From: Dysgonamonadaceae bacterium
GTDB taxonomy: Bacteria > Bacteroidota > Bacteroidia > Bacteroidales > Dysgonomonadaceae
NCBI GenBank assembly: GCA_031272205.1
Contig: JAISUH010000048.1
Coordinates: 1 to 34,181, forward strand
DNA length: 34,181 nucleotides
Direction of reading: 5' to 3'
The notes beneath the pieces are model-generated. The model was not told the origin of the DNA. It did not search any database and was given only the letters and a program-made list of their open reading frames with translations. A program made the position numbers and the translations under genes. Shown here one piece after another: positions 1,951 through 25,686 of this stretch (position 1 is the stretch's first letter; each line of letters starts with the position of its first letter).

Positions 1951-1979
1951 TTAGGTATAAAGGCCTATTTTGTATTCTT
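1951..1979 (+). promoter_or_regulatory. Shared 29-bp upstream element, copy 1
   Basis: The element starts TTAGGTATAAAGG and ends ATTTTGTATTCTT. It matches 6985-7013 at 26 of 29 positions without gaps; the differences are at element positions 6, 10 and 16. It ends 78 bp before the susC ATG. A common regulator site or a conserved leader RNA segment are both possible; the function is inferred only from duplication and position. Confidence 0.55.
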
Positions 1980-2057
1980 AAAATTATATGGACATCCCAT
2001 TTTATTGGTTTTTTTAAACTATGGATAACTGAAGTATCAATTAGATTTTCAAATTTT

Positions 2058-5000
2058 ATGAAAAACAATCGAAGAAAAATTTTTTGGTTCACGGCGTTTT
2101 TCTTTTTGTCGTTTCTTTGCAATGCTGCAAAAAACGATGTAAAGACGGCGTCGAATGAACAAAGAGAGGCACAACAAAACATGTTTGTGTCCGGAGTTGT
2201 AACCGATGAAAACGGCGAACCGTTGATTGGGGTTACGATAGTTTCCGCCTCAAAACAAATGGCGATAACGGACGCAGACGGTCGTTACAGCATTTCTGTT
2301 GGGAGGGGAGAGGAAATTACCTTCTCTTATGTGGGTTACATTTCGCAAACGCTCAAGGCGGCATCAACCTTGAATGTCAGCTTAGAGCCCGACACGACTG
2401 CTTTGAGCGAAGTGGTTGTTATCGGTTACGGAACTTTGGATAAGAAGCAAGTTACCAGCTCCATTACCTCGCTCAAAGCGAGTGATTTGCCCACCGGCGT
2501 TGGCGGCGCTTCCATCGCTAACGCGATGAAAGGCAAGGTTAATAACCTTGCGATAGCAGAAACGGCTTCGCCGAACTCCGGCGTTACCTTGCAGCTGCGC
2601 GGTATGGCTTCGGTAAATACCTCGGCCGCTCCCTTAGTGGTTATCGACGGTATGCCCGGCGGCGACATCCGTTCGGTAGCGCAGGAAGATATTCAGAGCA
2701 TCGATTTCCTGAAAGACGCTTCGGCAGGCGCAATCTATGGTACCCGCGCCAATGGCGGCGTTATCCTGATTACGACCAAGTCGGCGAAAGACGGCAAAAT
2801 GCGGATGAATTATACCGGAGAGGTACTGTTCAAACAGGCTTTCGGTAAACCGCGCGTGCTGAACGCACAAGAATTTCTCAGCAATGTTGCCGACGCAACC
2901 AACTACGGCGGCGATGTGGACTGGTGGGATGCCGCGCTGACCGACAATCCGACTTCATACCGCCATGTACTGACGCTGCAAGGCGGGTCGCCGGACGCAA
3001 AAGTGTATGCCACGGTGATGTACGAAGACAACAAAGGGGTGATGCTTTTTGATACCCGCAAAGACGTGGGCGGACGCATTAACGGACAATTCAAAGTTCT
3101 TGACAACTGGTTGGAAATCAATCCTCGCGTTTCGTATCGCCAAGCCCGCCGCAACGGTCAGGCGAATCCGGCGTGGAATATACTGGGGGATGCACCTCCC
3201 CAGTTGCCGGGCGTGCCCGTGTTCTACAATCCTACGCGCGACCCCAACGACCCGACAAAATGGGAAACTTCAAACCCGATGGACCCGCAAAACCCGATTA
3301 CCGACGGGGAGCAGATTACCAATCAAGGCTTGGAAAAATGGTTCAGTCCTACCGTGGAGGGGATTGTCAATATTAAACCGATAGAAGGCCTGACTTACCA
3401 CCATACCCTCGGTTACGAAAACCATCAATACGAATGGCAATATTACGCGCCTTCCACCGTGAAATCGATGGAATGGCAAAACCGCGGCGGAAAAGGCACC
3501 GGATATATGCAGTTCAATAAATGGGAGAATTTCAATACCGACGGTTATTTCAGTTTTATCCGTCAGTTTGGCGAATCGCATTATCTGAATGCTGTTGCCG
3601 GTTTCAACTACAACGAGAGTAACTCCGAAGGATTTGCGGTTAAAAACTTGAATTTTCCTGTTGACGGCGTGAAAATGTGGAACATCGGCAGTGGCGAGAA
3701 TCTGAACAACCCGCTCGTTACCGACGGAAACCTGCAAGCAAAAATGGCGTCGAACAAAAGCGCTACCGAACGTATTATGGCCTATTTTGCCCGCGCAAAC
3801 TATTCTTACAATGACACTTACTTGGCCTCTGTATCCTTGCGCCGCGAAGGTTCGTCGAAATTTTGGGGCGACAACAAATGGGGTACTTTTTACAGCATAT
3901 CGGGCGGATGGCGCATCTCCAACGAAGCTTTCTATGAAGGGTTGAAACCTGTTGTCAACGACTTGAAGCTTCGCGCTTCTTACGGTGAGACCGGAAATGC
4001 AGGCTTCAACGCCAACTATTCGGCCATCATGTATAGCAGCAGCGGATATTGGATTATGCCCAACGGCGCTTGGGCGCAAACTTACGGACAGGCGCAAAAC
4101 GTCAATAAAGACCTGAAATGGGAAGAAAAACACGAATGGAACCTCGGTTTGGATTTTGAATTGCTCAACGGCCGTTTCTTCGGGAAATTTGACCTCTACA
4201 ACCGCAAAACCGTGGGTCTGATTTATTCGATAAACGTTCCGGTTCCGCCTTACACGCAATCAACCATGTACAAAAACATCGGCGACTTGGCGAACAGGGG
4301 ATGGGAAATTGAACTTGGAGGGAAAATCTATTCCAACAGTGATTTCTCCTACGATACGAAACTCAATTTGAGCCACAATTTCACGAAAATCGGGAAAATG
4401 GCCGATGCCGACCAGCAAATTACTGCAAGCTACATCGGACGCGCCGGTTATGTGCACATGATTGAAGAAGACGCCGTTGTAGGCTCGTTCTTCCTCTATA
4501 AGTACGCAGGCCTGACTTCCGACGGTGAGTTTCAGGCCATCGGAGCCGACGGAAGTGTCATTGTACCGGAAGTTGACGGAAAAAACTTGGCCGACAAACA
4601 GTTTATCGGCAACTATCAGCCTAAGTTCCAATTGGGTTGGACGCATAATTTGAGTTGGAAAAACTGGTCGTTAGACATTACGCTCACCAGCTGGATGAAT
4701 TTCGACATTTATAATCAGTTGGAACACGAATACGGAACCCTCAACGGAATCCCCGGCAGCAACCGCAACTACCTGTTGAGCGCTTACACGACTCACAAGG
4801 ATATGAAAGGGCAAACGCTGGAATGTGATTATTGGCTCGAAGACGGCACCTTCCTCAAAATTCAGAACGCGCAACTTTCATACACTTTGAATACAAAGAA
4901 GAAGTTGCCTCTGCTCGAAAGCGCCCGTTTCTATCTTACCGGCAACAACCTTTATACCTTCACCGGTTACAGCGGCCTTAATCCCGAAATCGATATTACA

Positions 5001-5078
5001 GGATGGACCGGCGGCATCGAAAGCGTTGTTTACCCGCAAACCCGTACTTTCGCGTTCGGCGTTCAATTAAACTTTTAA
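2058..5078 (+). CDS. susC: SusC/RagA family TonB-dependent outer-membrane glycan transporter
   Basis: This 1006-residue protein is the outer-membrane barrel that imports oligosaccharides with its SusD partner, energised by TonB. The start at 2058 is chosen because it begins a signal peptide (about residues 1-24); the longer open frame upstream only overlaps the GH92 gene. In order: signal peptide, carboxypeptidase-regulatory-like beta-sandwich (about 43-108, starting VSGVVTDENGEPLIGV), the SusC-type SEVVVIGYG motif (about 116-124), plug domain ending in GTRANGGVILITTKS, then the barrel, which ends in aromatic Phe as outer-membrane proteins do. The length is normal for the family. susD follows after 14 bp. 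The substrate cannot be read from the sequence, but the downstream genes point to a rhamnose-rich glycan. Confidence 0.96.
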   Translation: MKNNRRKIFWFTAFFFLSFLCNAAKNDVKTASNEQREAQQNMFVSGVVTDENGEPLIGVTIVSASKQMAITDADGRYSISVGRGEEITFSYVGYISQTLKAASTLNVSLEPDTTALSEVVVIGYGTLDKKQVTSSITSLKASDLPTGVGGASIANAMKGKVNNLAIAETASPNSGVTLQLRGMASVNTSAAPLVVIDGMPGGDIRSVAQEDIQSIDFLKDASAGAIYGTRANGGVILITTKSAKDGKMRMNYTGEVLFKQAFGKPRVLNAQEFLSNVADATNYGGDVDWWDAALTDNPTSYRHVLTLQGGSPDAKVYATVMYEDNKGVMLFDTRKDVGGRINGQFKVLDNWLEINPRVSYRQARRNGQANPAWNILGDAPPQLPGVPVFYNPTRDPNDPTKWETSNPMDPQNPITDGEQITNQGLEKWFSPTVEGIVNIKPIEGLTYHHTLGYENHQYEWQYYAPSTVKSMEWQNRGGKGTGYMQFNKWENFNTDGYFSFIRQFGESHYLNAVAGFNYNESNSEGFAVKNLNFPVDGVKMWNIGSGENLNNPLVTDGNLQAKMASNKSATERIMAYFARANYSYNDTYLASVSLRREGSSKFWGDNKWGTFYSISGGWRISNEAFYEGLKPVVNDLKLRASYGETGNAGFNANYSAIMYSSSGYWIMPNGAWAQTYGQAQNVNKDLKWEEKHEWNLGLDFELLNGRFFGKFDLYNRKTVGLIYSINVPVPPYTQSTMYKNIGDLANRGWEIELGGKIYSNSDFSYDTKLNLSHNFTKIGKMADADQQITASYIGRAGYVHMIEEDAVVGSFFLYKYAGLTSDGEFQAIGADGSVIVPEVDGKNLADKQFIGNYQPKFQLGWTHNLSWKNWSLDITLTSWMNFDIYNQLEHEYGTLNGIPGSNRNYLLSAYTTHKDMKGQTLECDYWLEDGTFLKIQNAQLSYTLNTKKKLPLLESARFYLTGNNLYTFTGYSGLNPEIDITGWTGGIESVVYPQTRTFAFGVQLNF

Positions 5079-5092
5079 ATAATTATTGACGT

Positions 5093-6841
5093 ATGAAAAG
5101 AACTATCATATTTTTAATTGCAGCTGTCGCTTTGGCAAAAGTTTTCCAGAGTTGCAGCATTGAGCCTACCTACTATTCTACGGTAGAGCCCAGTACGTTT
5201 TATTCCAGTGAAGATAAAGTGTATCAACGTTTTACGAATGCTTTCCAATATTGGACTTCAATGTATAACTATTCGCCTATATGGGGTTCGTTCACAAGTA
5301 CTTCGGGGCTCGCGACCGATGAGTTTGTCATGCCGAACCGCAATGGCGACTGGTACGACGACGGGTATTACCTCGACCATTACAACCACAAATTCTCGGC
5401 GGCTTGGAACGGTGAATGGTATTACTATTGGACCGGCTTTACGCGCGGAACGGCAGAGGTTTTCGACGTGCTTGACGACATCGAAAAAAATGTCGATTTC
5501 GAAGCGCTCGGTATTCCCGAAAGCACAAAAGAATCGCTGCTCAACCAGTTGAACGTGCTTGTAGCCTACTATTATCTTATGGGGCTTGATGCCTTCGGCG
5601 GCGTGCCTCTCTATACCTCTAAACAGGATGCTATCGACGGGTTGAAAGCTCGCGCAAGCGATCAGGAAACCTTCGATTATATTGAAACGCTCCTCAAAGC
5701 GGGGATTCCCTTGCTTCCCGTCAAACAAGCGGGAGATGCCGAAAATGGTTACATCACGCAGGGAACAGCCGCGGCTCTGCTTGCTCGCCTGTATTCCAAC
5801 GCAGAACCCTACATTGGGAAAACAATGTGGTCGGAATGTGCCGAAATTTGCACCAAGATTATTAACGGAGACTACGGCTATTACCGCTTGGCAACAAGAT
5901 TTCAGGATATTTTCGGCTACAACAATTCCACCTGTTCCGAAATTATGTGGACTGTGCCGAGCCAGACCGGAAAACTCGAACTCGATGGCGGTTCGCTGCC
6001 TTGGGGCGCACATTACAGCACATGGCAATACCTTGATAACGACAATTTTATGTCGTGGAACGGATATTGCCTCACGCCTTCGCAGGATATGTACGGCAAA
6101 CATTACAAAAATGAAGCCGGAAATCTGGGCGGGCCTTTCAAACTCGGTTGTCCTTACGACAAGTTTGAAGATACCGACTTGCGCAAAAAGAATTACATAT
6201 ATCTCGGCGGCGGCGAGTACGAAGGAATGTTCATCGCAGGCAAAATGCTGAATACAAAAACCGGCGTAGCAGCGCTTTACGACGGCAGCCGCGAATATAC
6301 CGAAGGCGATACCGTCTATATGGTTGACCAGATTGCGCAACTTTGCCCGACAAAAGTGTATTCCAACGGCCGCAAAGAAGGCGCTCTTTATGGGGAAGAA
6401 AATTCCGGCGTGAGAATCGTGAAATTTACGCCGATTCCCAATGGAGCCGACAATACTATGTATTACGACGCCGATATTCCCGTTATCCGCTTGACGGAAA
6501 TTGTGTATATGCTGGCCGAATGTAAATACAATCTTGGCGACAAGGCAGGCGCTGCAAGCCTGATCAATTCGGTACGCGCCCGCTACTTTACGGGCAGCGA
6601 CCCCAATCCGGTTACGGTCGCTAATCTCGATAAATACCGTTTGGCCGACGAATGGCTGATAGAATTTATCGGCGAAGGCCGCCGCCGCACCGACCTTATC
6701 CGCTGGGGAATGTACACCACCGAGTCGTGGTGGGATCATCCGGCCGACGGCTCCGGCAAAGAGTACCTCAATCGCTTGCCGATCACGATAAGTATGATAG
6801 AGGCAAACCCGAAATTGGAGCAAAATCCGGGGTATAATTAA
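5093..6841 (+). CDS. susD: SusD/RagB family surface glycan-binding lipoprotein
   Basis: This 582-residue lipoprotein is the lid of the SusC transporter and binds glycan at the cell surface. A short signal sequence ends in the lipobox VFQSC, with the lipidated Cys at residue 21. The rest is the helical, TPR-like SusD fold with many Tyr and Trp residues suited to sugar stacking. Near the C-terminus is the typical family stretch DEWLIEFIGEGRRRTDLIRW. The gene starts 14 bp after susC and is followed by a strong terminator, so susC-susD form one transcription unit. The opposite strand carries a 538-codon open frame that I regard as a composition shadow. The exact ligand is unknown. Confidence 0.95.
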   Translation: MKRTIIFLIAAVALAKVFQSCSIEPTYYSTVEPSTFYSSEDKVYQRFTNAFQYWTSMYNYSPIWGSFTSTSGLATDEFVMPNRNGDWYDDGYYLDHYNHKFSAAWNGEWYYYWTGFTRGTAEVFDVLDDIEKNVDFEALGIPESTKESLLNQLNVLVAYYYLMGLDAFGGVPLYTSKQDAIDGLKARASDQETFDYIETLLKAGIPLLPVKQAGDAENGYITQGTAAALLARLYSNAEPYIGKTMWSECAEICTKIINGDYGYYRLATRFQDIFGYNNSTCSEIMWTVPSQTGKLELDGGSLPWGAHYSTWQYLDNDNFMSWNGYCLTPSQDMYGKHYKNEAGNLGGPFKLGCPYDKFEDTDLRKKNYIYLGGGEYEGMFIAGKMLNTKTGVAALYDGSREYTEGDTVYMVDQIAQLCPTKVYSNGRKEGALYGEENSGVRIVKFTPIPNGADNTMYYDADIPVIRLTEIVYMLAECKYNLGDKAGAASLINSVRARYFTGSDPNPVTVANLDKYRLADEWLIEFIGEGRRRTDLIRWGMYTTESWWDHPADGSGKEYLNRLPITISMIEANPKLEQNPGYN

Positions 6842-6915
6842 AAAAAATCCGAAAGAAATTATTCCAAAGTTCATAAGAATTTTTCTTTTTCTTTTTTTTA
6901 GCTTTTAATTGTTTG

Positions 6916-6972
6916 CGCCGCCTCATCAGCCTTGTAAATTAGACTTTGAGGCGGCGATTTTTATTATTTTTT
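6916..6972 (+). terminator. Rho-independent terminator after susD
   Basis: CGCCGCCTCA (6916-6925) and TGAGGCGGCG (6947-6956) form a perfect 10-bp GC-rich stem with a 21-nt loop, followed by ATTTTTATTATTTTTT. It would end or attenuate transcription of susCD before the glycosidase genes. Confidence 0.85.
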
Positions 6973-6984
6973 GAGCCGCCGGTT

Positions 6985-7013
6985 TTAGGCATACAGGCCA
7001 ATTTTGTATTCTT
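6985..7013 (+). promoter_or_regulatory. Shared 29-bp upstream element, copy 2
   Basis: This is the second copy of the element at 1951-1979 (26/29 identical). It lies just after the susD terminator and ends 74 bp before the GH63-like gene, nearly the same distance as copy 1 from susC (78 bp). A TTTG at 7003-7006 lies 19 bp before TACCGGTT at 7026-7033, which is a poor -7 box; whether the element is a promoter part or an activator site is open. Confidence 0.55.
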
Positions 7014-7087
7014 CATTCAAATAGTTACCGGTTTTTTGGAAAATTAATCGTAAATTCGTGCTGCATTCAAACATTTCACATAAACTA

Positions 7088-9034
7088 ATGATGAATAAAA
7101 GTCTTAAATCCTTACTGTTAATCTTGATCGCTGTCGGCGTATCATGTACTAAAAACGCTGATATAGATAAAGTTGCGGCTCAACGCCATTACGAAGCCAT
7201 GCAACGCTCAATAGCGCAGGGCTGGAATACTTGGGATACCCGCTCTGTCCTGCGGCACGTGTTGCTTCCCTGCGGTGCCGCTATCGACCTCAACCTCGCT
7301 TCGGCCGACGGAAAACGCGAAAGCCGCTTCTTTATCGGCAACCGAGCCGAAGGCGCTCCCAGAATGCGTCCGGGCGCACATTCCTACGACGGCTATTATA
7401 CCGACGTTACCGCCGAATGGAATGGCTTCGTCCTCCGCGTGGAAAGCGCCGCCGACAGCCTCACGAACGTAATCATTATTACCCCTCAGGCGGAGAGCGC
7501 AAAAAACGGAAAAGTGATTGTTTCATTGAAAGAATTGTGGCAGCGTGCTGTTTGGATAAGATTGAAAGAAAATAAGTTTACGATAAACACATTGATTGAC
7601 ACTACCGCAGTGAATGGCGAAGTGTTGAATGATAGGGTAAAGTTTGATGCCGGAAAAAATGAAATCGCTTTCTCGGCCAACGATACGATTATTATTACTT
7701 GTGGAAAATCATTCACTCGCGAACAGGCTCGCGCATTTGTGGATGATCATTACAACAATTTTGTGAACAAAAACCGCCAAAAATACGGCGATTGCTACGA
7801 CGAATACAACGCGATGCAAAACGTCTTGGGCTGGGATAACATCTACGACCCTACCATCAACCGAGTTATCACGCCCGTTTCACGTATATGGAATGTGGGT
7901 TGGAGCAATAATCCCGAACTGGGCGGCTTTGTCCTTTTTTGTTGGGATACCTATTTTGCCTCGATGATGCTATCGACTGATAATAAGGAACTTGCTTATG
8001 CCAATGCGGTAGAAATTACCCGCGGAATTACCGAACAGGGTTTTGTGCCGAATTTTTATACCGAAAGCAATTATAAGTCGCGCGACCGCTCGCAACCGCC
8101 CGTCGGGACGCTCGCTGTTTGGAATATCTACCGAAAATACGGCGAAAAATGGTTCCTCGAACTGCTTTACGATGACCTTTTGCGCTGGAACCGATGGTGG
8201 GATGCCAACCGCCGTACCGATGGTCTGCTCTGTTGGGGCAGCACCCCCTTTGAGCCGGTTACTTACCGCTGGTGGGAGTTTGACGGCGTAAACGAAACAG
8301 AAGGCGGAGCCTTGGAGTCGGGTCTCGATAACTCGCAGATGTACGACAACATTCCCTACAATAAAGAAACGCATCAGCAAATGCTTAATGATGTGGGGTT
8401 GAGTAGTTTATACATTATGGACTGCAACTTGCTCGCTAAAATAGCCGATGAACTCGGCCAAAAATCCGACGCTGCTGAACTGCGCAAAAGAGGCGGCGAA
8501 TATGCCGGAAATTTGGAAAAACTTTGGGACGAAAACCGCAGTTTTTATTATAATAAACGGACTGATACAAAAGAGTTTAGCGACCGTGTTTCGCCGACGA
8601 ATTTTTATCCGCTTTTGGCCAATGTGCCGACTGTCGAACAGGCCGAGGCGATGCTGCAAAAACACCTGCTCAATCCCGAAGAGTTTTGGGGCGAATGGGT
8701 AATCCCCACAACACCCCGCAACGACCCCGCTTTTGCCGATAATACCTATTGGCGCGGAAGAATTTGGGCACCGCTCAACTTCTTGGTTTATATGGGAATA
8801 CGCAATTATGATGCTCCTGCGGTAAACGAAGTGCGCAGCCAATTGGCCGAAAAATCTCGAAATCTGCTGCTAAAATCGTGGTTGACAGACGGATATGTTT
8901 TCGAGAACTACAATTCGACTACCGGTCAAGGCGACGACGTGCGGAACAGCGATAAATTCTACCACTGGGGCGCCTTGCTCGGCTTTATCGACCTGATTGA
9001 GAAAGGATATTATGATCATGATGCCGTCGAATAA
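7088..9034 (+). CDS. GH63-like (alpha/alpha)6-barrel glycoside hydrolase lipoprotein
   Basis: This is a 648-residue secreted glycosidase, probably an inverting alpha-glycosidase of the GH63 / mannosylglycerate-hydrolase-like group. The frame is open from a GTG at 7058, but ATG at 7088 (or 7091) is preferred because it begins a lipoprotein signal with lipobox VGVSC (Cys 20). An N-terminal beta-rich domain covers about residues 30-210. The (alpha/alpha)6 barrel then shows ESGLDNSQMYD (Glu410, Asp414), WGEWVIP (Glu536) and TYWRGRIWAPLNF near 554. The ESGLDNS Asp is the likely general acid and a Glu near the C-terminus the base, by analogy with GH63. It opens a transcription unit after the susD terminator and is followed by GH106 A after 54 bp. 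The donor sugar (glucose, mannose or other) is not certain. Confidence 0.75.
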   Translation: MMNKSLKSLLLILIAVGVSCTKNADIDKVAAQRHYEAMQRSIAQGWNTWDTRSVLRHVLLPCGAAIDLNLASADGKRESRFFIGNRAEGAPRMRPGAHSYDGYYTDVTAEWNGFVLRVESAADSLTNVIIITPQAESAKNGKVIVSLKELWQRAVWIRLKENKFTINTLIDTTAVNGEVLNDRVKFDAGKNEIAFSANDTIIITCGKSFTREQARAFVDDHYNNFVNKNRQKYGDCYDEYNAMQNVLGWDNIYDPTINRVITPVSRIWNVGWSNNPELGGFVLFCWDTYFASMMLSTDNKELAYANAVEITRGITEQGFVPNFYTESNYKSRDRSQPPVGTLAVWNIYRKYGEKWFLELLYDDLLRWNRWWDANRRTDGLLCWGSTPFEPVTYRWWEFDGVNETEGGALESGLDNSQMYDNIPYNKETHQQMLNDVGLSSLYIMDCNLLAKIADELGQKSDAAELRKRGGEYAGNLEKLWDENRSFYYNKRTDTKEFSDRVSPTNFYPLLANVPTVEQAEAMLQKHLLNPEEFWGEWVIPTTPRNDPAFADNTYWRGRIWAPLNFLVYMGIRNYDAPAVNEVRSQLAEKSRNLLLKSWLTDGYVFENYNSTTGQGDDVRNSDKFYHWGALLGFIDLIEKGYYDHDAVE

Positions 9035-9088: not shown

Positions 9089-11614
9089 ATGTTCAATAAG
9101 ATAGCGTTACTTCTTCTGATTTTCAGTTTTCAATTTTCAGTTTTCAATTCTTCGGCTCAGGGCTATACGCCCGAAACGCTGCAATCTTTGGCGGAAAAGT
9201 TCGAAAAACCGTCGGATGAATACCGTCCGCAGGTGTGGTGGCACTGGCTGGGAAGCAATTTCAGCAAATCGGGTATCACCAAAGATTTGGAGGCTTGGAA
9301 GGAGGCGGGGATCGGCGGCGGCTGCATTTTTAACATCACATCATCGGTGCAGGAGTCGAATTATCCTATGGGCAACCTGCCGTTTCCCCATCAAACCTTC
9401 CGCAGTCCGGCCTATTGGGAGGCTGTTGAACACACGATGAAAGAGGCGAAACGCCTCGGTCTGACAATGGGTTTGCACGGTACACCCGGCTATTCCACTA
9501 CCGGAGGGCCGTGGATTGACGAAGAACGCGGTATGAAAGCATTGATCAGCAGTCAAATACGGATCGAAGGCGGAAAAGCGATTGATATCGCACTGCCGAA
9601 ACCGGAATTGCCCGACTTTACAACCTATGAAAGCAAATATATTGTTGATTACAAGCCTTCTAAGGCGCACTTGTATTGGGATATCACCGTCATGGCTGTC
9701 CCCGACAGAGCCGACGTCGGTATCGAAGATGTTGTGGAATTGAAGTCCTTTACCGATTCGGAGGGGCATTTAAGATGGGATGCACCCGACGGGAAATGGG
9801 TTGTTTACCGCTACGGTTACGCGCCTACAATGGCGCCGCCGCATCCTGTGCCCGACGATATTATGGGCAAGGTGTTGGAAGTGGATAAAATGAGCCGCGA
9901 GGACAATATCTATCATTGGCAGCAGTTGCTTGACCCTCTTAAAGAGCATATCGGCAGTTATTTCGGCAATACTTTCCGCTACGTTTGGGTGGACAGTTAC
10001 GAGTCGGGTTACCAAAATTGGACGCCTAAATTTCGCGAAGAATTTATCGAAATAAAGGGTTATGACCCGCTTCCGTGGGTAACTTTATACCAGTACAAAA
10101 ACAAACAGACCTTGCAAACGCATTTCTCGGCGGACGATTTTGAGGGTAGTCGTTTTAAAAGTAATTTACCTGAATTTCAGGTGTTTTGTAAAGATTACGA
10201 TGATGTGGTGAGGCGGCTTTTCATGGATAATGGTTTTGCTGTGGCGAAAGAGATGTTGCACAAATACGGCTTGAAACTTTATTGGGAGCCTTATTGGGGA
10301 CCATTCAGCACCTACGAAGGCTCTGCGATGGCCGATGTGCCGGTGGATGAGTTCTGGAGCGGCAGCAACGCCGCCGACACGATATGGGTAAACCGTTCCA
10401 TTATGCGGGCGGCTGTAGAGTATGACAAACGGATTATCGGCGCCGAAGCCTTCACCGGCGCTCCTTCGTTAAGCCGCTACACCGAAGACCCCGCTTTCCT
10501 GAAAAACAAGGCCGACGGCGGCTTTGCAAGTGGAAAAAACCTGTTTTTTCTGCATCATTGGGTGCATCAGCCCTTCGACGACCGCTACCAGCCCGGACTG
10601 GGAATGGGTTGGTGGGGAACGCATTTCAGCCGTTTTCAGACGTGGTTCGAGCCGGGCAAAGCCTTCTTTACCTATCTTGCCCGCTGTCAGATGCTTTTGC
10701 AACAGGGCGATTACGTGCCGAACAACAGTTACAGCGAATATTTCACTCACCGCCGACTGCCCGAAGGAGAGCTGTTTTTCGTGCTCAATACGGCGGATGT
10801 CCCGCAAAAAACATACACCTTCGCCGTAGAAAATGTATCGAGCGTGGAACTTTGGGACGCTTACGGCGGAAATATTACCCGATCGGCGCACTGGCGCAAG
10901 CAGGGCGGCAAAGTTGAGGTTGATTTGAATTTGGAAAAAAATCAATCGATGTTCGTTGTTTTTCCCAATCATGCGACCAACTACCGAAAACTTACGGAAA
11001 AAACGGTCGTCGCCGAAGAGGCAATAGATTACAAAGTCGTGTGGGACGTAACTTTTGAACCGAAACTCGGCAAAACTTTCAAGCGCAAATTCAAGCAACT
11101 GACCGATTGGAGCAAAAGCACCGACCCGAAAATCAAATATTTCTCCGGCACAGCCAAATACGAAACCACTTTCCATTCTCAATTTTCAATTGACTCCAGC
11201 CGAATGTCGTTTCTCAATTTTCGATTTATCTTGGATTTGGGTGAATTGGAGGATATTGCCGAAGTGGAAATCAATGGCGAAAAAGTAGGTGTTCTTTGGG
11301 CGCCGCCTTATAAAATTGATATAACTGATAGGATTAAAGAAGGAAAGAATAAACTTGCGATTTACGTAACGAACAACTGGGCTAACCGTTTGATTGGCGA
11401 TGAGCAGTATCCCGCCGATTTTGAATGGGGTAACGACCGCGGCGAAGACGGCAGGGCAATGAAAACGTTCCCCGACTGGTTTGTGAACAATACGCCCCGT
11501 CCCGAAAAAGGTCGCAAAACCTTCAACGTCTGGTATTATTACCGCAAAAATTCGCCTTTACAACCCGCCGGACTATTCGGGGATGTCAGGCTGATAATAA
11601 AAACTTATGAATGA
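9089..11614 (+). CDS. GH106 alpha-L-rhamnosidase A (compact form)
   Basis: This 841-residue enzyme should remove terminal alpha-L-rhamnose in the periplasm. The signal peptide is residues 1-24, ending SSAQ. GH106 marks: VWWHWLGSNFSKSGITKDLE near 48, HGTPGYSTTGGPWI, WVDSYESGYQNW (Glu305), EPYWGPFSTYEG and AEAFTGAPS (Glu453). The Glu residues of DSYE and AEAFTG are shared by all three GH106 proteins here and are my candidates for the catalytic pair. The C-terminus is a jelly-roll domain (VEINGEKVGVLWAPPYKIDI). After LLQQG the chain passes directly to FFVLNTAD, so the GATase-like module present in GH106 C is absent. Heptanucleotide repeats are translated in the signal peptide (9121-9148) and in the C-terminal domain (11176-11224). 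The stop overlaps the next gene's first ATG by 8 bp. Confidence 0.9.
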   Translation: MFNKIALLLLIFSFQFSVFNSSAQGYTPETLQSLAEKFEKPSDEYRPQVWWHWLGSNFSKSGITKDLEAWKEAGIGGGCIFNITSSVQESNYPMGNLPFPHQTFRSPAYWEAVEHTMKEAKRLGLTMGLHGTPGYSTTGGPWIDEERGMKALISSQIRIEGGKAIDIALPKPELPDFTTYESKYIVDYKPSKAHLYWDITVMAVPDRADVGIEDVVELKSFTDSEGHLRWDAPDGKWVVYRYGYAPTMAPPHPVPDDIMGKVLEVDKMSREDNIYHWQQLLDPLKEHIGSYFGNTFRYVWVDSYESGYQNWTPKFREEFIEIKGYDPLPWVTLYQYKNKQTLQTHFSADDFEGSRFKSNLPEFQVFCKDYDDVVRRLFMDNGFAVAKEMLHKYGLKLYWEPYWGPFSTYEGSAMADVPVDEFWSGSNAADTIWVNRSIMRAAVEYDKRIIGAEAFTGAPSLSRYTEDPAFLKNKADGGFASGKNLFFLHHWVHQPFDDRYQPGLGMGWWGTHFSRFQTWFEPGKAFFTYLARCQMLLQQGDYVPNNSYSEYFTHRRLPEGELFFVLNTADVPQKTYTFAVENVSSVELWDAYGGNITRSAHWRKQGGKVEVDLNLEKNQSMFVVFPNHATNYRKLTEKTVVAEEAIDYKVVWDVTFEPKLGKTFKRKFKQLTDWSKSTDPKIKYFSGTAKYETTFHSQFSIDSSRMSFLNFRFILDLGELEDIAEVEINGEKVGVLWAPPYKIDITDRIKEGKNKLAIYVTNNWANRLIGDEQYPADFEWGNDRGEDGRAMKTFPDWFVNNTPRPEKGRKTFNVWYYYRKNSPLQPAGLFGDVRLIIKTYE
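9121..9148. repeat. Four heptanucleotide repeats inside a signal peptide
   Basis: Four units, TTTCAGT, TTTCAAT, TTTCAGT and TTTCAAT, run end to end and encode part of the hydrophobic core of the GH106 A signal peptide. Related heptamers occur at 11176, 13156, 15100 and 29706-29807. Confidence 0.8.
11176..11224. repeat. Paired heptanucleotide repeats in the GH106 A C-terminal domain
   Basis: TTCTCAA + TTTTCAA (11176-11189) and TTCTCAA + TTTTCGA (11211-11224) flank a short unique stretch. They encode FHSQFS and FLNFRF between two strands of the C-terminal sandwich. The same place in GH106 B carries four such heptamers; GH106 C has none. Confidence 0.7.
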
Positions 11615-12965
11615 TATGAACCCTAAAAAAATGAATACAATACTTAGAATCAATATTTTAGCTGTCGTTGTTGTCTCGACATTAGATCTCTGTGCGCAAA
11701 ACGTGTCGATAGAAAACGCGATCATCAAGCATCAGGGCGTTTGCGATCCGCACATCCGCATTTTCAATGATACGGCATACCTGTTTTCGAGCCACGACTA
11801 CGGTAAAGGCGAGCCGATTTACCGGATGGACGACTGGCAAATATTCAAGTCGGCCGACCTTGTGAATTGGGAAAAAGTGTTCGTGCTGAAGCCCGAAGAT
11901 ACTTTTATCGGCGCGTGGAAAGAATGTTACGCTACCGATGCTGCCGAACGCGATGGCAAATATTACCTCTATTTTTCGCAGCAGCAAATTCAAACGGGGG
12001 TGGCCGTCGCCGACAGCCCCGACGGTCCTTACAAAGATGCGCTCGGCAAGCCTATTTTGCCTGCAAATCTCACGCCTACTGCCGATTACGACCCGCACGT
12101 TTTTATTGACGACGACGCGGCAAAAACGCCCTACCTGCTTTGGGGTTACACGGTTTTGGGGCAGGATTACTATATTGCCCGTCTGAACGATGATATGATT
12201 ACGCTTGCCGAAAAGCCGCGGAAAATCGATATCGGCAAGGCTTGGGAAAACGATGCCATCGCCCTGCACAAGCGCAACGGAATCTATTACCTTAATTCGC
12301 ATCAGGGCGAATATGCAACGGCCTCAACGATTTACGGCCCATACACCTACCGCGGGCAGGTTTCGAAACTGTGGCAAGACCACGGCAATTTTTTTACTTG
12401 GCACAACCAGACATTCTATTCTTACGGTGTGCGCGAGAATTGGGACGACCCTTTTTACCGCACTTCGAAAATCACTTATGCTTATTACAAGGACAATGGC
12501 GATATTGTGTTGGACGAATTTATTGCGAACGCTAATTATGGGGTGGGGCAGTACGATGCCCGCTGGGGTAAAATTCAGGCGGAATGGTTCTTTGCCGCTT
12601 CCGACGGGTTGTCCGTAAGCGAAAATGCAAGCGGTTTTGAAGTCAGGGGTATAAGCAACGGCTCGTATCTTATTTATCCCAAATTCAAGCATTTTGCAGA
12701 AAATCCAAGACTAACTTTTTGTGTGTCTTTTGCTGACGTTAGAAAAGAATACACGGTGGGGACAATAGAAATACGGCAAAATTCACATAGAGGGAGACTG
12801 CTCGGCAAATGCAAAATCAAGAGTGTCAGCGACCGAAACACGAACAACGTTTTTTCCTGCAAACTAAAATTGCAGCCGCAGGAAACCGATATTTGCCTTG
12901 TTTTTAAAGGCAAGGGCGGCGGATTGATGCGATTGGACTGGTTTGAGTTCACGGCGGAGGAATAA
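11607..12965 (+). CDS. GH43 family glycosidase with C-terminal CBM6-like domain
   Basis: GH43 enzymes are five-bladed beta-propeller alpha-L-arabinofuranosidases, beta-xylosidases or galactanases. Numbered from ATG 11607 (452 residues), the three expected acids are visible: Asp47 in CDPHIRIF (base), Asp162 in DYDPHVF (pKa modulator) and Glu214 in WENDAIAL (acid). QIFKSADLVNWE is a typical GH43 blade motif. Residues from about 330 to 452, ending in GLMRLDWFEF, resemble a CBM6 beta-sandwich. Alternative starts at 11616 and 11631 also give a signal peptide ending LDLCAQ; 11631 gives the shortest n-region. The first ATG overlaps the GH106 A stop, suggesting translational coupling. Subfamily and substrate are not resolved. 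Confidence 0.85.
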   Translation: MNDMNPKKMNTILRINILAVVVVSTLDLCAQNVSIENAIIKHQGVCDPHIRIFNDTAYLFSSHDYGKGEPIYRMDDWQIFKSADLVNWEKVFVLKPEDTFIGAWKECYATDAAERDGKYYLYFSQQQIQTGVAVADSPDGPYKDALGKPILPANLTPTADYDPHVFIDDDAAKTPYLLWGYTVLGQDYYIARLNDDMITLAEKPRKIDIGKAWENDAIALHKRNGIYYLNSHQGEYATASTIYGPYTYRGQVSKLWQDHGNFFTWHNQTFYSYGVRENWDDPFYRTSKITYAYYKDNGDIVLDEFIANANYGVGQYDARWGKIQAEWFFAASDGLSVSENASGFEVRGISNGSYLIYPKFKHFAENPRLTFCVSFADVRKEYTVGTIEIRQNSHRGRLLGKCKIKSVSDRNTNNVFSCKLKLQPQETDICLVFKGKGGGLMRLDWFEFTAEE

Positions 12966-12977
12966 AACCTTTGGGTT

Positions 12978-13008
12978 TTTGAAATAAAAAATATAATTTG
13001 TATTTTTG
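12978..13008 (+). promoter_or_regulatory. Consensus Bacteroidota promoter before GH106 B
   Basis: TTTG (12978-12981), a 19-bp spacer and TATTTTTG (13001-13008) match the TTTG-N19-TAnnTTTG consensus exactly. It would start transcription near 13015, giving a leader of about 100 nt before the ATG at 13115. A small 6-bp hairpin (AAAACC 12964-12969 / GGTTTT 12974-12979) abuts it and may weakly terminate upstream transcription. Confidence 0.7.
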
Positions 13009-13114
13009 TAAAAACATAGAAATTTTGCAGAATTTAAGGTAAAAAGGGGTTAATACTCATTCTGCCGCAAACTATAAATAAAGAAAGAAAATCAAAAAAC
13101 ATAAACACTCTAAT

Positions 13115-15508
13115 ATGATGAAGACCAAATTTTTGGCAATCCTGCTCGTTTTTATTTTTCAACATTCCACATTCCACAGTTTTTCACAACAGTATAAACC
13201 CGAAACGCCTGAAACACTTGCAGCACAGTTTGTTGGGCAACCCGACGATGCTTACAAACCGGGCGTTTTTTGGCATTGGCTCGGTACAATGTACAACCGC
13301 GATGGCATCGCCAAAGACCTCGAAACGATGAAAGCGGTTGGCCTGAACAGCGCATTTATCTTCAATGCTCCGCTCTGGCTCGACCCCGAAAAAACGCTTT
13401 ATCCGCAAAACACCTACCGTAGCGAGGCCTACTGGGATGCGCTCGAATTTGCTTTCGCCGAAGCCCAAAGGCTGAAAATGGAAATAGGCCTGCACAACTG
13501 CCCCGGCTGGTCAACTACCGGCGGCCCATGGATCAATCCCGATACCGACGGAATGAAAGCGGCGACGTTCAGCACCATCAAGGTTCCCGGCGGGAAGAAA
13601 ATACATATCGAATTGCCCTTGCCGAAAGGCGATTTCTACAAGGATGTGGCTGTTTTTGCGGCCGAAGGCGACAAAATAATCGACGTAACAAGCTGTTTCT
13701 CAAGCGGCATATTGAATTGGGACGCTCCTCAGGGCGAATGGACGATTTACCGCTTCGGATATTTCAGTACGATGCAAAACACGCATCCAACGCCTGAAGA
13801 GGTGCAAAAAACCTCGTTTGAGGCCGACAAGATGAGCGTTGAGGCAACCGTAAAACATTGGAATAATATGCTAAAACCGCTCACAGAGCGGTTTAAACAA
13901 TATATCGGACATTCGTTCAATTATATCTGGATCGACAGTTACGAGGCTTGGGGACAAAGCTGGACGCCCGATTTCCGCGAGAAATTTATCGCGATGAAGG
14001 GATATGACCCTGTTCCTCAAATCATCAGGGCTTATCAACGGGGCGACAATGTTTTGGACGAAGGGACGAAAGGTCTGAAAATTGATGGCAGAGCCTTCCA
14101 ACCGGAATCGCAAGTTTTTCTTGCCGATTACAAAGATGTTGCAAATCGTTTGTTCCAGAATTGCTGGCGTTTGGGCGCCGAAATGGTTCGTGCGGCAGGA
14201 TTTAAATTAATCTGGGAGCCCTACGGCAGCATTATTGACGCGCCTTTCGATATGAAAGAAGCGGAAAGCATTCCCGATATTCCGGCGACAGAATTTTGGC
14301 TGCACAGCCATGCACCCTCCGGAGGAGGCGATTTTGCACCGTCTGCAGCGCGTTACAACAAAAGAATAGTGGCAGCCGAGGCCTTTACGGGAATGGAATC
14401 GACATCGTGGTTTAACGAGACGCCCGCAATGCTCAAACGCCCTGCTGATATGGCTTTCTCTTACGGTGTCAATATGTTCGTCCTTCATTCATGGGCGCTC
14501 GATCCGTTGCCCGACAAATATCAACCGGGTTGGGCTTTTGCGCATTACGGTACGCATTTTGGCCGCAATCAGACTTGGCACAAGCCCTCAAAAGCGCTTT
14601 TCGACTATTTTTCGCGCTGCCAGATGCTTTTGCAGCAGGGTACTTTTGTTGGGAGGACAGAAAACGTGTTGCACCGCTCAACTCCCGATGCGGAGATATT
14701 TTTTATCCGCAATGCCGGACATGCGGCGGTCGATAAAGAGTTTGAATTTCCGACCGTCAAAGACCGCATTCCCGAACTTTGGGACGCCTACTTTGGAAAA
14801 ATCTCGCAGGCGGATTTTCGAAAAGCCGAAAATTCGATTTTCGTGAAAATTCATTTGGAAAAAGACGAATCGGTTTTTGTTGTTTTTCCTTCAAAACCGA
14901 CTGTCGGAGCGGAAAAAATCAAAACTCCGCAAACCGGAAAATCCATAGAGATTAAAGGCCATTGGAACGTTAAATTTGTTCCGAAAACCGGCGAAAAACC
15001 ATTCAATACAACCTTTAAAACATTGGTCGATTGGAGCAAAAATGCCGCCCCGCGCATCAAATACTTCTCAGGCACAGCCGTTTACGAAACAGTGTTTCAT
15101 TCTCAATTCTCAATGTTCAATTCTCAATTATTTTTGGATTTGGGTGAAGTCCGCGACCTTGCCGAAGTGGAAATCAACGGACAAAAGGTCGCTACGCTGT
15201 GGGTTACGCCTTTTAAAGTTGATGTTACAAAGTATCTGAAAAAAGGGAATAATACGATAAAAATCAGTGTTACAAATACTTGGCAAAATGCAATGATTGG
15301 CGACGAGCAATATCCTCGCGATTTTGAATGGGCTGTACGCGACTGGAACGGCTTACCGGCGATGACTGCGTTGCCCGATTGGGTACTGCACGACCAACCG
15401 CGCCCGGAGCCGCGCCGCAAGACATTTATCCCGTGGTTTTACTACGACAAAACGTCGCCGCTTGAGCCGTCTGGATTGATGGGGCCTGTGTCAATCAGTG
15501 AATATTAA
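13115..15508 (+). CDS. GH106 alpha-L-rhamnosidase B (compact form)
   Basis: This 797-residue periplasmic rhamnosidase is a paralogue of GH106 A with the same compact architecture. A second ATG at 13118 is equally possible as start. The signal peptide ends near SFSQQ and includes translated heptamers. Family motifs: VFWHWLGTMYNRDGIAKDLE, HNCPGWSTTGGPWI, WIDSYEAWGQSW (Glu277), WEPYGSIIDAP and AEAFTGMES (Glu422). The chain goes from LLQQG to FFIRNAGH with no GATase-like module. The C-terminal jelly roll contains FHSQFSMFNSQLFLDLGE, of which the first part is coded by four heptanucleotide repeats (15100-15127). It has its own consensus promoter and is followed by GH2 after 27 bp. It probably cuts a different rhamnosyl linkage from A; this is inference. 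Confidence 0.9.
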   Translation: MMKTKFLAILLVFIFQHSTFHSFSQQYKPETPETLAAQFVGQPDDAYKPGVFWHWLGTMYNRDGIAKDLETMKAVGLNSAFIFNAPLWLDPEKTLYPQNTYRSEAYWDALEFAFAEAQRLKMEIGLHNCPGWSTTGGPWINPDTDGMKAATFSTIKVPGGKKIHIELPLPKGDFYKDVAVFAAEGDKIIDVTSCFSSGILNWDAPQGEWTIYRFGYFSTMQNTHPTPEEVQKTSFEADKMSVEATVKHWNNMLKPLTERFKQYIGHSFNYIWIDSYEAWGQSWTPDFREKFIAMKGYDPVPQIIRAYQRGDNVLDEGTKGLKIDGRAFQPESQVFLADYKDVANRLFQNCWRLGAEMVRAAGFKLIWEPYGSIIDAPFDMKEAESIPDIPATEFWLHSHAPSGGGDFAPSAARYNKRIVAAEAFTGMESTSWFNETPAMLKRPADMAFSYGVNMFVLHSWALDPLPDKYQPGWAFAHYGTHFGRNQTWHKPSKALFDYFSRCQMLLQQGTFVGRTENVLHRSTPDAEIFFIRNAGHAAVDKEFEFPTVKDRIPELWDAYFGKISQADFRKAENSIFVKIHLEKDESVFVVFPSKPTVGAEKIKTPQTGKSIEIKGHWNVKFVPKTGEKPFNTTFKTLVDWSKNAAPRIKYFSGTAVYETVFHSQFSMFNSQLFLDLGEVRDLAEVEINGQKVATLWVTPFKVDVTKYLKKGNNTIKISVTNTWQNAMIGDEQYPRDFEWAVRDWNGLPAMTALPDWVLHDQPRPEPRRKTFIPWFYYDKTSPLEPSGLMGPVSISEY
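13156..13176. repeat. Heptanucleotide repeats in the GH106 B signal peptide
   Basis: Units TTTTCAA, CATTCCA and CATTCCA lie end to end in the signal-peptide coding region. They resemble the repeats in the equivalent region of GH106 A (9121-9148) but differ in sequence. Confidence 0.65.
15100..15127. repeat. Four heptanucleotide repeats in the GH106 B C-terminal domain
   Basis: TTCTCAA, TTCTCAA, TGTTCAA and TTCTCAA are contiguous and in frame with the gene. They occupy the same inter-strand position as the repeats at 11176-11224 in GH106 A. Confidence 0.8.
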
Positions 15509-15535
15509 CGATTTGAAAATCAAGTTGCTATTGTA

Positions 15536-17356
15536 ATGAAAAATTTTTTTACAGTTATTCTTATTGTTGTTACGACAAGTGCATCTGCTCAGTGGAAACC
15601 CGCGGGGGACAAAATAAAAACACTGTGGGCAGAGCAGATAGACCCCAAAAATGTGTTGCCGGAATACCCGCGTCCCCTGTTGGAACGGCCTGAGTGGAAA
15701 AATCTTAACGGACTGTGGAATTTTGCCGTTACTTCGCTGCAAGAGGCCCAACCTGCAACTTACGAAGGTCGGATATTGGTGCCTTTTGCCGTAGAATCGA
15801 GCCTTTCCGGCGTGCAACAGGCTGTAAACGATAAGCAACAAATGTGGTATAACCGCACATTCACCATTCCGAAACAATGGAAAAATAAACGGATATTATT
15901 GCATTTCGGCGCGGTAGATTGGAAAACGGAAATATTTGTAAATGATGTATTTATAGGAAGTCATACCGGAGGTTATTCCCCATTTAGTTTCGATATCACC
16001 CCTTTCCTCGTGCCGGGTGATAAACAGGAACTGACCGTGAAAGTGTGGGATCCTACCGACCGGTATTTTCAACCCCGCGGAAAGCAGGTGAGCAATCCTG
16101 CCAATATTGTTTATACGGCCGTATCGGGGATATGGCAAACCGTGTGGATGGAGCCGGTGGACGAAAAACACATTACGTCATTAAAAATTCTCCCTGATAT
16201 CGATAAAAGTGTTGTTTCGGTGAAGGTGAATGTCTGCAAGGCCTCACAGGATGATTATGTTGAGATTAAGTTGTTGAAAGAAGGGGCATTGGTGTCCGTA
16301 AAAAAAGTGGCGCTGGGAGATGATGCATTTGAAATACCCGTACCCGATGCGCAATTATGGTCTCCGGATTCGCCCTTCCTTTACGATCTCGAAGTTGCGC
16401 TTTTTAGCAAAGGCAAGCAGACCGATAAGGTGAAAAGTTATTGTGGAATGCGCAAAATTTCGATGTCCCGCGACGACAAGGGCGTTATGCGCCTGCAACT
16501 GAACAACAAAAATCTGTTCAACTTGGGTGTGTTGGATCAGGGTTGGTATCCCGATGGCTTATATACGGCCGCTACGGATGAAGCCTTGACTTCCGATATA
16601 CTGTTGCTTAAAAAGCTGGGATTTAATATGATACGCAAACACATCAAAGTAGAGCCCGCACGATGGTACACGCATTGCGACAGATTGGGGATTCTGGTGT
16701 GGCAGGATATGCCCAGCGGCGATAACAATTGGGGATACAGCGGCATAAACTATATGCGCGATTATTTGGATGACAAGGTTGTGAAAAACAATACCATAGC
16801 TCGCGACAATTATCGAAAAGAATGGAAAGAAATCATCGATAATCTGTATTCGTATCCCAGTATCGTGATGTGGATTCCGTTTAACGAGGGTTGGGGGCAG
16901 TTTGATACTGCGAATATGGCCGAATGGACGAAATCGTATGACTCTTCGCGGATACTGAATCCCGCTTCCGGAGGCAACTTTTATCATACCGGGGATGTGC
17001 TTGATATGCACCATTATCCCGAACCGGAAATGTTTCTTTATGACCCCGATAGGGTTAATGTATTGGGTGAATACGGCGGTATAGGATATGCCATAAAGGA
17101 ACATTTGTGGTCTCCTGACGATAATTTTGGCTATGAAAGCTTGCTTCAAAGTCCTAAAGAAGTAACAGACAAATACATAGACTTACTCCATATCTTGAAA
17201 TCCTTGGATAAATTCTCAGCCTCGGTTTATACACAGGTATCCGATGTGGAGCGCGAGGTAAACGGATTCGTAACATACGATAGAAAAGTAATTAAGATAG
17301 ACGAAACAGCCATTAGAAAGGCCAATCAGGATATAATCCGGCAATTTTCGGAATAG
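15536..17356 (+). CDS. GH2 family beta-glycosidase
   Basis: GH2 enzymes are retaining beta-galactosidases, beta-glucuronidases or beta-mannosidases. This 606-residue protein has a signal peptide (about 1-18, ending SASA), the N-terminal sugar-binding jelly roll (about 55-180, with MWYNRTFTIP and GGYSPFSFDIT), an immunoglobulin-like domain and a TIM barrel. The acid/base is Glu451 in PFNEGWGQFD and the nucleophile is very likely Glu512 in LGEYGG. The chain ends soon after the barrel, so it is a short GH2 without the extra domains of LacZ. It lies between two GH106 genes, 27 bp after B and 37 bp before C, and could act on galactose or glucuronate uncovered by rhamnose removal. Sugar specificity is not determinable from motifs alone. 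Confidence 0.9.
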   Translation: MKNFFTVILIVVTTSASAQWKPAGDKIKTLWAEQIDPKNVLPEYPRPLLERPEWKNLNGLWNFAVTSLQEAQPATYEGRILVPFAVESSLSGVQQAVNDKQQMWYNRTFTIPKQWKNKRILLHFGAVDWKTEIFVNDVFIGSHTGGYSPFSFDITPFLVPGDKQELTVKVWDPTDRYFQPRGKQVSNPANIVYTAVSGIWQTVWMEPVDEKHITSLKILPDIDKSVVSVKVNVCKASQDDYVEIKLLKEGALVSVKKVALGDDAFEIPVPDAQLWSPDSPFLYDLEVALFSKGKQTDKVKSYCGMRKISMSRDDKGVMRLQLNNKNLFNLGVLDQGWYPDGLYTAATDEALTSDILLLKKLGFNMIRKHIKVEPARWYTHCDRLGILVWQDMPSGDNNWGYSGINYMRDYLDDKVVKNNTIARDNYRKEWKEIIDNLYSYPSIVMWIPFNEGWGQFDTANMAEWTKSYDSSRILNPASGGNFYHTGDVLDMHHYPEPEMFLYDPDRVNVLGEYGGIGYAIKEHLWSPDDNFGYESLLQSPKEVTDKYIDLLHILKSLDKFSASVYTQVSDVEREVNGFVTYDRKVIKIDETAIRKANQDIIRQFSE

Positions 17357-17393
17357 AAAGGCACAGATAGACAGTGATAATAACGGTGTGAAT

Positions 17394-20300
17394 ATGAAGT
17401 GTTTGTATCAAATTTTTGCGTTAATCCTTCTTTTGTTGACAGCTTGTCATACGGATAGGACGGATTCGCTCAAGACCGGTTTTGAGAATCCGCCCGCCTC
17501 AGTTCGGGTGGGTTGTTATTGGTACTGGATTGACAAAACCGTTACAAAAGAGGGCGTTATAGCCGATTTGCAAGCGATGAAACAGGCCGGTATTACCCGC
17601 GCGTTTATTGGAATGACGGGTGGAGGCGACAATCTTAAATTTATGTCCGATGAATGGTGGGATTTAATTCATACCACACTGAAAACCGCTTCGGATCTCG
17701 ATATTGAGATAGGAATGTTTAATTGTCCGGGTTGGAGTCAGTCGGGCGGCCCTTGGATAAAGTCCAATCAGGCGATGCGCTATTTGGCTGCTGTGGAAAG
17801 GCGAATCACCGGCCCGGCGCACTTTTCCGATAAAATTCCGGTTAATCAAGACGATATTCCGAGTATCGACGGGCTGGGTTGGAGCAACGAAGCCTATCAA
17901 TCTACACCTGATGATTTTCAGGATGTTAAGCTATTGGCTTTCCCCATCGACGGCGCAGCTTCACAAAATCTTCTTGAAACAAAAAATGCGGAAATCCTGT
18001 TGTCGGGAAATATAAAAAAAAGCGTGAAAAATGCAGAAACATTTTATCAACTGCCTGAAAAAGAAGAGTCAATCATCACTTTTAAATTTCCATCGAGACA
18101 ATCCGCTCAAAGTCTTAAAATCTTTGTTTCGGGCAGAATAAAAGCGGATGTGGAATTGCAAGCCCGTAAAAATAAGCAATATGTAATCATTGATACGTTT
18201 ACGATTGACCATAGCGTTGACGGCCTGATGCGCGGTTTTATCCCCAACTCGCCGATTGCGATTGCGTTTCCGAAAACCTTTGCCCAAGAATTTCGCCTTG
18301 TTTTCCGAAATGCGGGTGAGGATGGTTTTCTGACCGGCTTTTCGCTGAGGCAAATGCCTGTGGTTGAGCGTTACCCGGAAAAAACAATGGCTAAAATGTT
18401 CAACAGTTTCACGCCTCCATGGGACGCTTATATGTGGGATTTTCAGACTGCCGATACAACCTACTCTATTAACACAGAGGATGTTATAGATATTACCGAT
18501 AAACTTGCGGCCGATGGAACCCTGACTTGGGACGTCCCCTCCGGCGAATGGATTGTGCTTCGCACCGGAATGTTGCCCACCGGTCTGCAAAATTCTCCTT
18601 CGCCCGCGGGCGCAATGGGGCTTGAAGTGGATAAAATAAGCGGACAACTTGCTGAATATCACTTTGATTCGTATATCGGAACAATTCTTGAACGTATTCC
18701 GCCGGAAGACCGCCGAACGTTCCGTGTCGTGGTGCTCGACAGTTACGAAAAAGGTGGACAGAATTTTACCGACCATTTTATCGATATTTTTAAGAAGACT
18801 TACGGTTACGACCCAACAGCATGGTTGCCATCGTATTATGGTTATCCTGTCGGTAGCCCCGAACTCTCGAACCGCTTCCTTTGGGACATGCGCCGAATGG
18901 TTGCCGACCGCATTGCGCACGAATATATTGGCACAATGCGGCGCAAAGCCAATGAAAACGGCCTCACGACGTGGCTCGAAAATTACGGTACCTGGGGTTT
19001 TGCAGGCGAATTTTTGCAGTATGGCGGCGCGAGCGACGAGGTTGGCGGCGAATTTTGGACGGGCGATTATCTTGGCGACGTAGAATGTCGCGCTGCTGCC
19101 TCATGTGCGCACACTTACGGCAAACAAAAAGTATGGGCGGAGGCTTTCACCGGCGATAAATTCCATTATCAGCAGGCGCCCGCCGACCTGAAAAAGAAAG
19201 CTGATTGGGCCTTTGCAAGCGGGGTGAATGCTTTTGTACTGCACGTTTATATTCAGCAACAGGCTGATAATCAATATCCGGGCGTTGATGAATGGTACAA
19301 TACCGAATTTAACCGCAAAAATACATGGTTTACGCAACTCGATTTGTTTACAACTTACCTCCGCCGTTGCAGTTTTATGTTGCAGCAAGGGCTGAATGTG
19401 GCCGATGTTGCTTATTACATTGGCGAAGACGCTCCGAAAATGGATGGAATCACAGAGCCGAAAATTTCGGAAGGCTATCATTATGACTTTATAAATGCCG
19501 AGGTCTTGATGAATTATGCTACGGTCAAGGACGGAAAACTGACCTTGCCTCACGGAACTCAATACAGAGTTTTAGTTTTGCCGCCGCAATCGACAATGCG
19601 ACCCCAAATACTGGATAAAATTGTGCAATTTGCTGAAAAAGGCTTAGTTGTTGTAGGAACACCCCCTAAATTTTCTCCGAGTTTGCAGGATTATCCCGAT
19701 GCCGACAAAAAAGTAGCGGAACTTGCCGCGCGATTGAAAAAGAAGATTTATCCGAATTTTCACGATAAACCGGTTTTTACAAACGATTTGGCTCGACCGG
19801 ACTTTGCCGTTTCGGGTGCCGTTTCGGTTCTCTTTACCCACCGAAAAACGGAGGATGCGGATATTTATTTTATTACAAATCAAACAGATAGTAAGATTCG
19901 TTCTACGGCGCAATTTCGCGTTTCCGGTCTAAAACCGGAATTATGGGATCCATTGACCGGCGAAATTCACGATGGGCTCGCTTTTTATGAAAGTGATGAA
20001 TATTCAACTTATATACCGCTTCGGCTTGAACCCGGTGAAAGTATATTCGTCGTTTTTCGAAAGAAAGAAAAAAGCAATTCTCCTCATTCGCAATATGAAA
20101 AAAAATCATCTGATGGTCTGATAATTACCGAAATAAATAGCAATTGGACACTGCATTTTCAGTCGGATTCGATTCATCGCGGCCCCTCTGAAGCCGTCGT
20201 TTTCGATAGCTTGCAAGACTGGTCGAAAAGTGCTGTACCCGAAATCAAATATTATTCGGGCACAGTAGTTTACGAAAATACCTTCAAATTGTACGAGCCG

Positions 20301-20609: not shown

Positions 20610-20610
20610 T

Positions 20611-20618
20611 TATATTTG
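20611..20618 (+). promoter_or_regulatory. Internal -7 promoter element before GH78
   Basis: TATATTTG followed by C matches TAnnTTTGC and begins 2 bp after the GH106 C stop, 20 bp before the GH78 ATG. The -33 region has only TTCG at 20584-20587, with longer than usual spacing. It would give an almost leaderless GH78 transcript in addition to readthrough. Confidence 0.5.
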
Positions 20619-20637
20619 CCCCTGAATCCGAAAGTTT

Positions 20638-23295: not shown

Positions 23296-23359
23296 TATAA
23301 CTGATGCAATAATTACCAAATGAAGAATATCATATAGTATAAATTAAAATTAGAATCAC

Positions 23360-24778: not shown

Positions 24779-24785
24779 GAGTTTG

Positions 24786-25667: not shown

Positions 25668-25686
25668 TTTTATAATCATAAAATAA

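Follow-up and report, generated by a model that had tools for sequence, protein, structure and literature searches.

A rhamnosidase-rich locus and its repeated element

The window, here the whole analysed stretch of 34,181 nucleotides (contig JAISUH010000048.1, assembly GCA_031272205.1), comes from a Dysgonamonadaceae bacterium, a gut-dwelling relative of species from termite guts, whose genome is represented by an 83%-complete MAG. It carries a rhamnosidase-rich PUL in which a susC/susD pair is followed by a hairpin and a run of enzyme genes, and no regulator gene was found within it. The features discussed below are listed with their coordinates and strand.

1950-1959, + strand: -35 box TTTAGGTATA of the predicted ECF-sigma promoter copy 1 (susC)
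1972-1979, + strand: -10 box GTATTCTT of the predicted ECF-sigma promoter copy 1 (susC)
2058-5078, + strand: susC, encoding a TonB-linked receptor of the SusC/RagA type that lacks the STN signalling domain
5093-6841, + strand: susD
6916-6956, + strand: terminator-like hairpin with a T-rich tail, located after susD and ahead of copy 2
6984-6993, + strand: -35 box TTTAGGCATA of the predicted ECF-sigma promoter copy 2 (enzyme genes)
7006-7013, + strand: -10 box GTATTCTT of the predicted ECF-sigma promoter copy 2 (enzyme genes)
7051-7058, + strand: TAAATTCG, a box resembling the housekeeping (sigma-ABfr) -7 element, 38 bp past copy 2
7091-9034, + strand: gene for a GH63/MGH1-like glycosidase that opens the enzyme run (7088 is the other possible start)
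9089-27120, + strand: downstream co-directional genes for three GH106 enzymes, GH43-CBM6, GH2, GH78, GH30, a SASA esterase and a sugar transporter
Contig C38 of the same genome, about 1683-2252, - strand: ECF sigma gene, 62% identical ortholog of the sigma found beside the motif in a relative, with the matching region at 1704-2249

The two copies of the element, TTTAGGTATAAAGGCCTATTTTGTATTCTT at 1950-1979 and TTTAGGCATACAGGCCAATTTTGTATTCTT at 6984-7013, are identical at 27 of 30 positions; the match of 26 in 29 given in an earlier note for 1951-1979 and 6985-7013 is correct and gains one base at its left end. The distances to the start codons also hold: copy 1 ends 78 bp before the susC ATG at 2058, and copy 2 ends 74 or 77 bp before the GH63-like gene, depending on which of the two possible start codons (7088 or 7091) is used. 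With up to three mismatches allowed, the 19-bp core would be expected 0.03 times in the window and was found twice, and the two copies are thus beyond chance. A weight matrix trained solely on other genomes gave them 17.0 and 15.5 bits, the next best place in the window reaching 2.6, and a scan of the window found no further motif copy among the genes at 9089-27120. The earlier note held that many copies scattered through the genome would count against a regulatory role. In the 2.33-Mb genome the merged 30-mer matched exactly two places at up to three mismatches, with no third copy and no match for the reversed control, and a BLAST search with the 201 bp around copy 1 returned copy 2 as its sole match (E 1e-4), so this check did not refute such a role.

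The terminator that the same note had placed between susCD and the enzyme genes was confirmed as a hairpin of -22.5 kcal/mol (z -4.2), which a simple terminator scan missed because of its long loop. Its counterpart after susD in a closely similar locus (L016; z -6.5) is kept despite base changes, and the stem is closed in both. The TAAATTCG box is likewise kept in L016, with TTTG 20 bp upstream and the ECF element absent, and the GH63-like ortholog of genome G494 lacks the ECF copy and has the housekeeping-like promoter TTTG-N20-TAAATTCG; the ECF site of that genome lies upstream, at an STN-SusC, on what is taken to be the contig of the GH63-like gene. A possible housekeeping promoter downstream of copy 2 might suffice by itself. 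Upstream of copy 1, a housekeeping -7-like box, TATCTTTG, is found at 1887-1894, and a perfect 10-bp inverted repeat joins 1902-1911 to 1970-1979, its second arm being the 3' end of copy 1.

A bipartite motif in related genomes

Comparison of the regions upstream of GH63-like orthologs showed that some relatives keep the outer boxes of the element and leave the inner 12 bases free, giving the motif TTTAGGYRTA-N12-GTRTTCTT. At up to one mismatch it was found at 11 sites in seven of eight related genomes, one to three in each, with none for the reversed control. Overall the motif was seen in eight related Bacteroidales genomes, mostly from termite guts; the nearest relatives by locus are Bacteroidales MAGs, and their termite-gut origin is taken from isolate names. 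It lies upstream of three susC genes whose products carry an STN domain according to Pfam (L014, at a distance of 121 bp, L093 and L102) and of further SusCs that appear to bear STN on inspection of the sequence (L094/L108, L097/L141 and L174). The motif also precedes a susD gene (L008, where it comes after a susC encoding a Pfam-supported STN), GH63-like genes (L010 and L011), a GH106 gene (L103) and a gene without Pfam match (L105), and the site in genome G488 falls between susC and susD.

In copy 1 the hexamers TTTAGG and GTATTC are separated by 16 bp, and all 19 sites share this distance between TTTAGG and GTRTTC; inner gaps of 11 and 13 bp yielded only matches with three mismatches. As the sites were picked by the pattern, selection-free evidence of conservation comes only from positions outside it, such as the A at 32. 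This geometry, a hexamer, 16 bp and a second hexamer, followed by an A/T-rich stretch, is the one expected of an ECF promoter, in which two conserved boxes stand at a fixed distance of about 16-17 bp.

The strict 30-mer matched only its own genome among 101 genomes of the family, since the spacer differs in the relatives. None of 392 other genomes in the order carried the mismatch-free motif, and the six matches of the bipartite pattern at one mismatch elsewhere in the family fell below the control count and are therefore attributed to chance. Within the window's genome, three mismatches gave 19 matches against 21 in the control; by position, just one of the 19, the copy ahead of the sigma gene, is credible.

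A conserved small peptide as the source of the similarity (L008 reads FRHIVLLCVLYY) was rejected, the variable bases not lying on third codon positions. Separately, leaders between the motif and STN-susC genes contain a short ORF starting M(K/R)NKDP (L014 from 3619 onward, L141, and L106 at about 2830); the readings MKNKDPTGNMPKQMQEILLYY, MKNKDPTGNTQHA and MRNKDPVII suggest, by eye only, a possible leader peptide.

A probable cognate sigma factor and competing readings

One motif copy in genome G490 lies before an ECF sigma gene (L100) that is followed by FecR. A close ortholog of this sigma occurs once in each of six genomes (the window's genome, G000, and G490 to G494) at about 60-74% identity, the remaining ECFs of these genomes reaching at most 34%. 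The six proteins form one clade with 100/100 support, apart from other ECFs, and a search of 392 genomes of the order returned no further sigma beyond 41% identity; the best relative in G506 is 42-45% identical and falls outside the clade. In the window's genome the sigma gene lies on a contig other than that of the window, its product fits TIGR02985, the Bacteroides-expansion ECF subfamily (138.6 bits against a cut-off of 126.4), and the gene after it (in L139) matches FecR (4e-15) and FecR_C (1e-18). The genome thus has the arrangement of cell-surface signalling systems, an ECF gene followed by a gene for a FecR-domain anti-sigma factor, and in G491 the orthologous PUL has the sigma and FecR genes immediately on its upstream side. 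Beside the sigma gene on C38, the stretch 2599-7762 (L139) holds a second, divergent ECF gene, a gene in anti-sigma position and an STN-SusC, neighbours that belong to another PUL.

The motif precedes the sigma start codon in all six orthologs with the same internal spacing and at a distance of 14-36 bp, as would be expected of a sigma that controls its own gene. These copies were scored with a matrix built from PUL sites of other genomes, against 2000 shuffles each. For four genomes no shuffle was as good, and the copies of G490 and G491 had the top scores. Those of the window's genome (three mismatches; 54 of 2000 shuffles as good) and of G494 (20 of 2000) are degenerate and agree with the others in position and spacing. 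No good copy was found upstream of more distant ECFs (31-45% identity). Among 26 genomes, the motif was present in six of six with the ortholog versus three of 20 without it, for which Fisher's p of 4e-4 is only indicative, because the sampled genomes are related and were selected by way of their GH63-like gene, and the test ignores shared descent. Two MAGs of unstated completeness, G488 and G489, have the motif, and no sigma ortholog was found in them. In G506 (L174, 1769-2338) the motif lies between an STN-SusC gene and a divergent ECF gene, the latter not orthologous to the proposed sigma.

We are highly confident in reading the element as a promoter, with TTTAGGCATA as its -35 and GTRTTCTT as its -10 box, that would be recognized by the single ECF sigma encoded beside FecR on C38. 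The earlier note had proposed a shared regulatory element that might be an activator site, for an HTCS or ECF system, or a leader RNA motif. The common transcription signal is supported and the ECF option is the one that the evidence favours; the HTCS site and the leader motif are not supported. The sigma-gene motif, together with the bipartite sites in relatives, also supports its idea that susCD and the enzyme genes form one regulon with a regulator elsewhere, which is now narrowed to a predicted ECF/FecR pair at another locus.

An AraC-type site of a hybrid two-component regulator, aiding the housekeeping sigma at a downstream promoter, would suit the -7-like box TAAATTCG placed 38 bp after copy 2 and the fact that PULs are commonly under HTCS regulators (PMC3878776). 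Known HTCS sites, however, have a direct-repeat structure with a period of about 21 bp (PMC3878776), and the 19 sites have no repeat at a shift of 21 (identity 0.37, within the background maximum); the sole excess in the self-repeat test was at a shift of 17, stems from shared GTAT-like letters and is gone in the sigma-gene sites. In the sigma genes only 14-36 bp separate the end of the motif from the start codon, too little to fit both an activator site and a promoter of its own downstream. With the motif tracking an ECF clade and no HTCS gene present in the window or among the genes examined beside the motif, we consider such a site improbable. A SusR site was rejected as well, as it needs tandem boxes 67 or 77 bp apart (PMC3878776) and the boxes here are 22 bp apart, start to start.

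Even less weight is given to a leader RNA motif, acting after transcription as a structure or as a protein or sRNA target. A transcript through copy 1 could start from the -7-like TATCTTTG, and the inverted repeat at 1902-1911/1970-1979 includes the 3' end of that copy, but the predicted leader (1896-1990) folds no better than shuffled sequences (z -0.84), on which ground the repeat was rejected as an RNA stem. Furthermore, the inverted arm was not found at copy 2, and conservation is confined to two short boxes with a free spacer. It is about equally hard to credit that the element is a recent segment duplication or mobile-element remnant devoid of regulatory function. The spacers of the two window copies do agree at ten of 12 positions, so that one copy may derive from the other; yet their flanks differ, the genome has only two copies, and the same boxes with different spacers stand before functionally matching genes in other genera.

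Proposed regulon and relation to known systems

Under the promoter reading, one alternative sigma would most likely switch on its own gene along with those for the sugar importer and the first enzymes. Where PULs are under ECF control, SusC passes its signal to the anti-sigma factor through the STN domain (PMC7782687), and anti-sigma loss raises PUL transcription from a 5' end lacking the housekeeping consensus (PMC11501099). By analogy with these systems, and given the repeat, the motif in relatives, the sigma-gene motif and the sigma/FecR pair observed here, glycan binding by an outer-membrane STN-SusC would cause FecR to free the sigma factor. The freed sigma would then drive its own operon as well as both copies here, with copy 1 serving susCD and copy 2 serving the enzyme genes. 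As copy 2 lies past the conserved hairpin that ends the susCD unit, this second promoter would restart transcription there and restore enzyme expression.

By Pfam, the SusC of the window has no STN domain, unlike a SusC that usually acts as the sensor, and the inducing sensor is therefore probably another SusC. No STN-SusC behind this promoter was encountered in the window's genome, which is 83% complete. The window protein is 85% identical to the likewise STN-less SusC of L016 (4050-7040) and about 51-56% identical to the STN-bearing SusCs of L014 and L008, homologs from other families, which suggests that STN was probably lost in the lineage of the window, or else gained by the others. We tentatively propose, leaning slightly against rather than for it, that this lineage's SusC lost its STN domain and kept the ECF promoter, so that glycan import and degradation would be switched on by a different STN-SusC. 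If true, the ECF regulon would relay the signal from one transporter to another between separate loci, and would not be a self-induced PUL.

Judged by comparative genomics, the element is real and regulatory, ordinary in kind, and comes with a specific and testable sigma-promoter assignment. Few PUL regulators in Bacteroidetes are as common as ECF/anti-sigma pairs, and to our knowledge the DNA sequences of such switches are rarely known. The type of system is familiar; the predicted promoter assignment appears to be new, judging from the literature searched. By tying a particular promoter sequence to one sigma clade across genera, the analysis offers a sigma-promoter pair open to experiment, and the motif is a route for assigning remote PULs to their regulators in uncultured bacteria of the termite-gut type.

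A close known parallel is the control of Bacteroides PULs by an ECF sigma and a FecR-type anti-sigma, for example in PUL24 (BT1877/BT1876; PMC11501099), which shares the ECF and anti-sigma pair, the STN-SusC targets (here in the relatives) and glycosidase genes that the same sigma serves from a start site of their own (here predicted); the mapped 5' end upstream of its susC-like gene falls, like the predicted promoter here, in a place devoid of the housekeeping consensus. Unlike in PUL24 (PMC11501099), a sigma-recognition sequence common to several genera is proposed here, the SusC of the window lacks STN, and the enzymes are rhamnosidase-rich rather than acting on host glycans or raffinose. 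A 2020 transcriptome study reported no known recognition motif for any B. thetaiotaomicron ECF (PMC7366714). The consensus has TGTT within GTGTTCTT and in this may resemble the non-housekeeping, TGTT-containing -10 of B. thetaiotaomicron promoter motif 2, or SigW-1; for those promoters, as far as their published description goes here, no -35 like TTTAGGCATA is given, and the SigW-1 motif was not significant in its source study (PMC7366714, PMC12596196). The HTCS sites Rgu-1 and Rgu-2 (PMC3878776) resemble the element in their place, ahead of susC and the enzyme operons in loci of the pectin type; they differ in being AraC-domain targets with a direct repeat at about 21 bp, a structure absent here.
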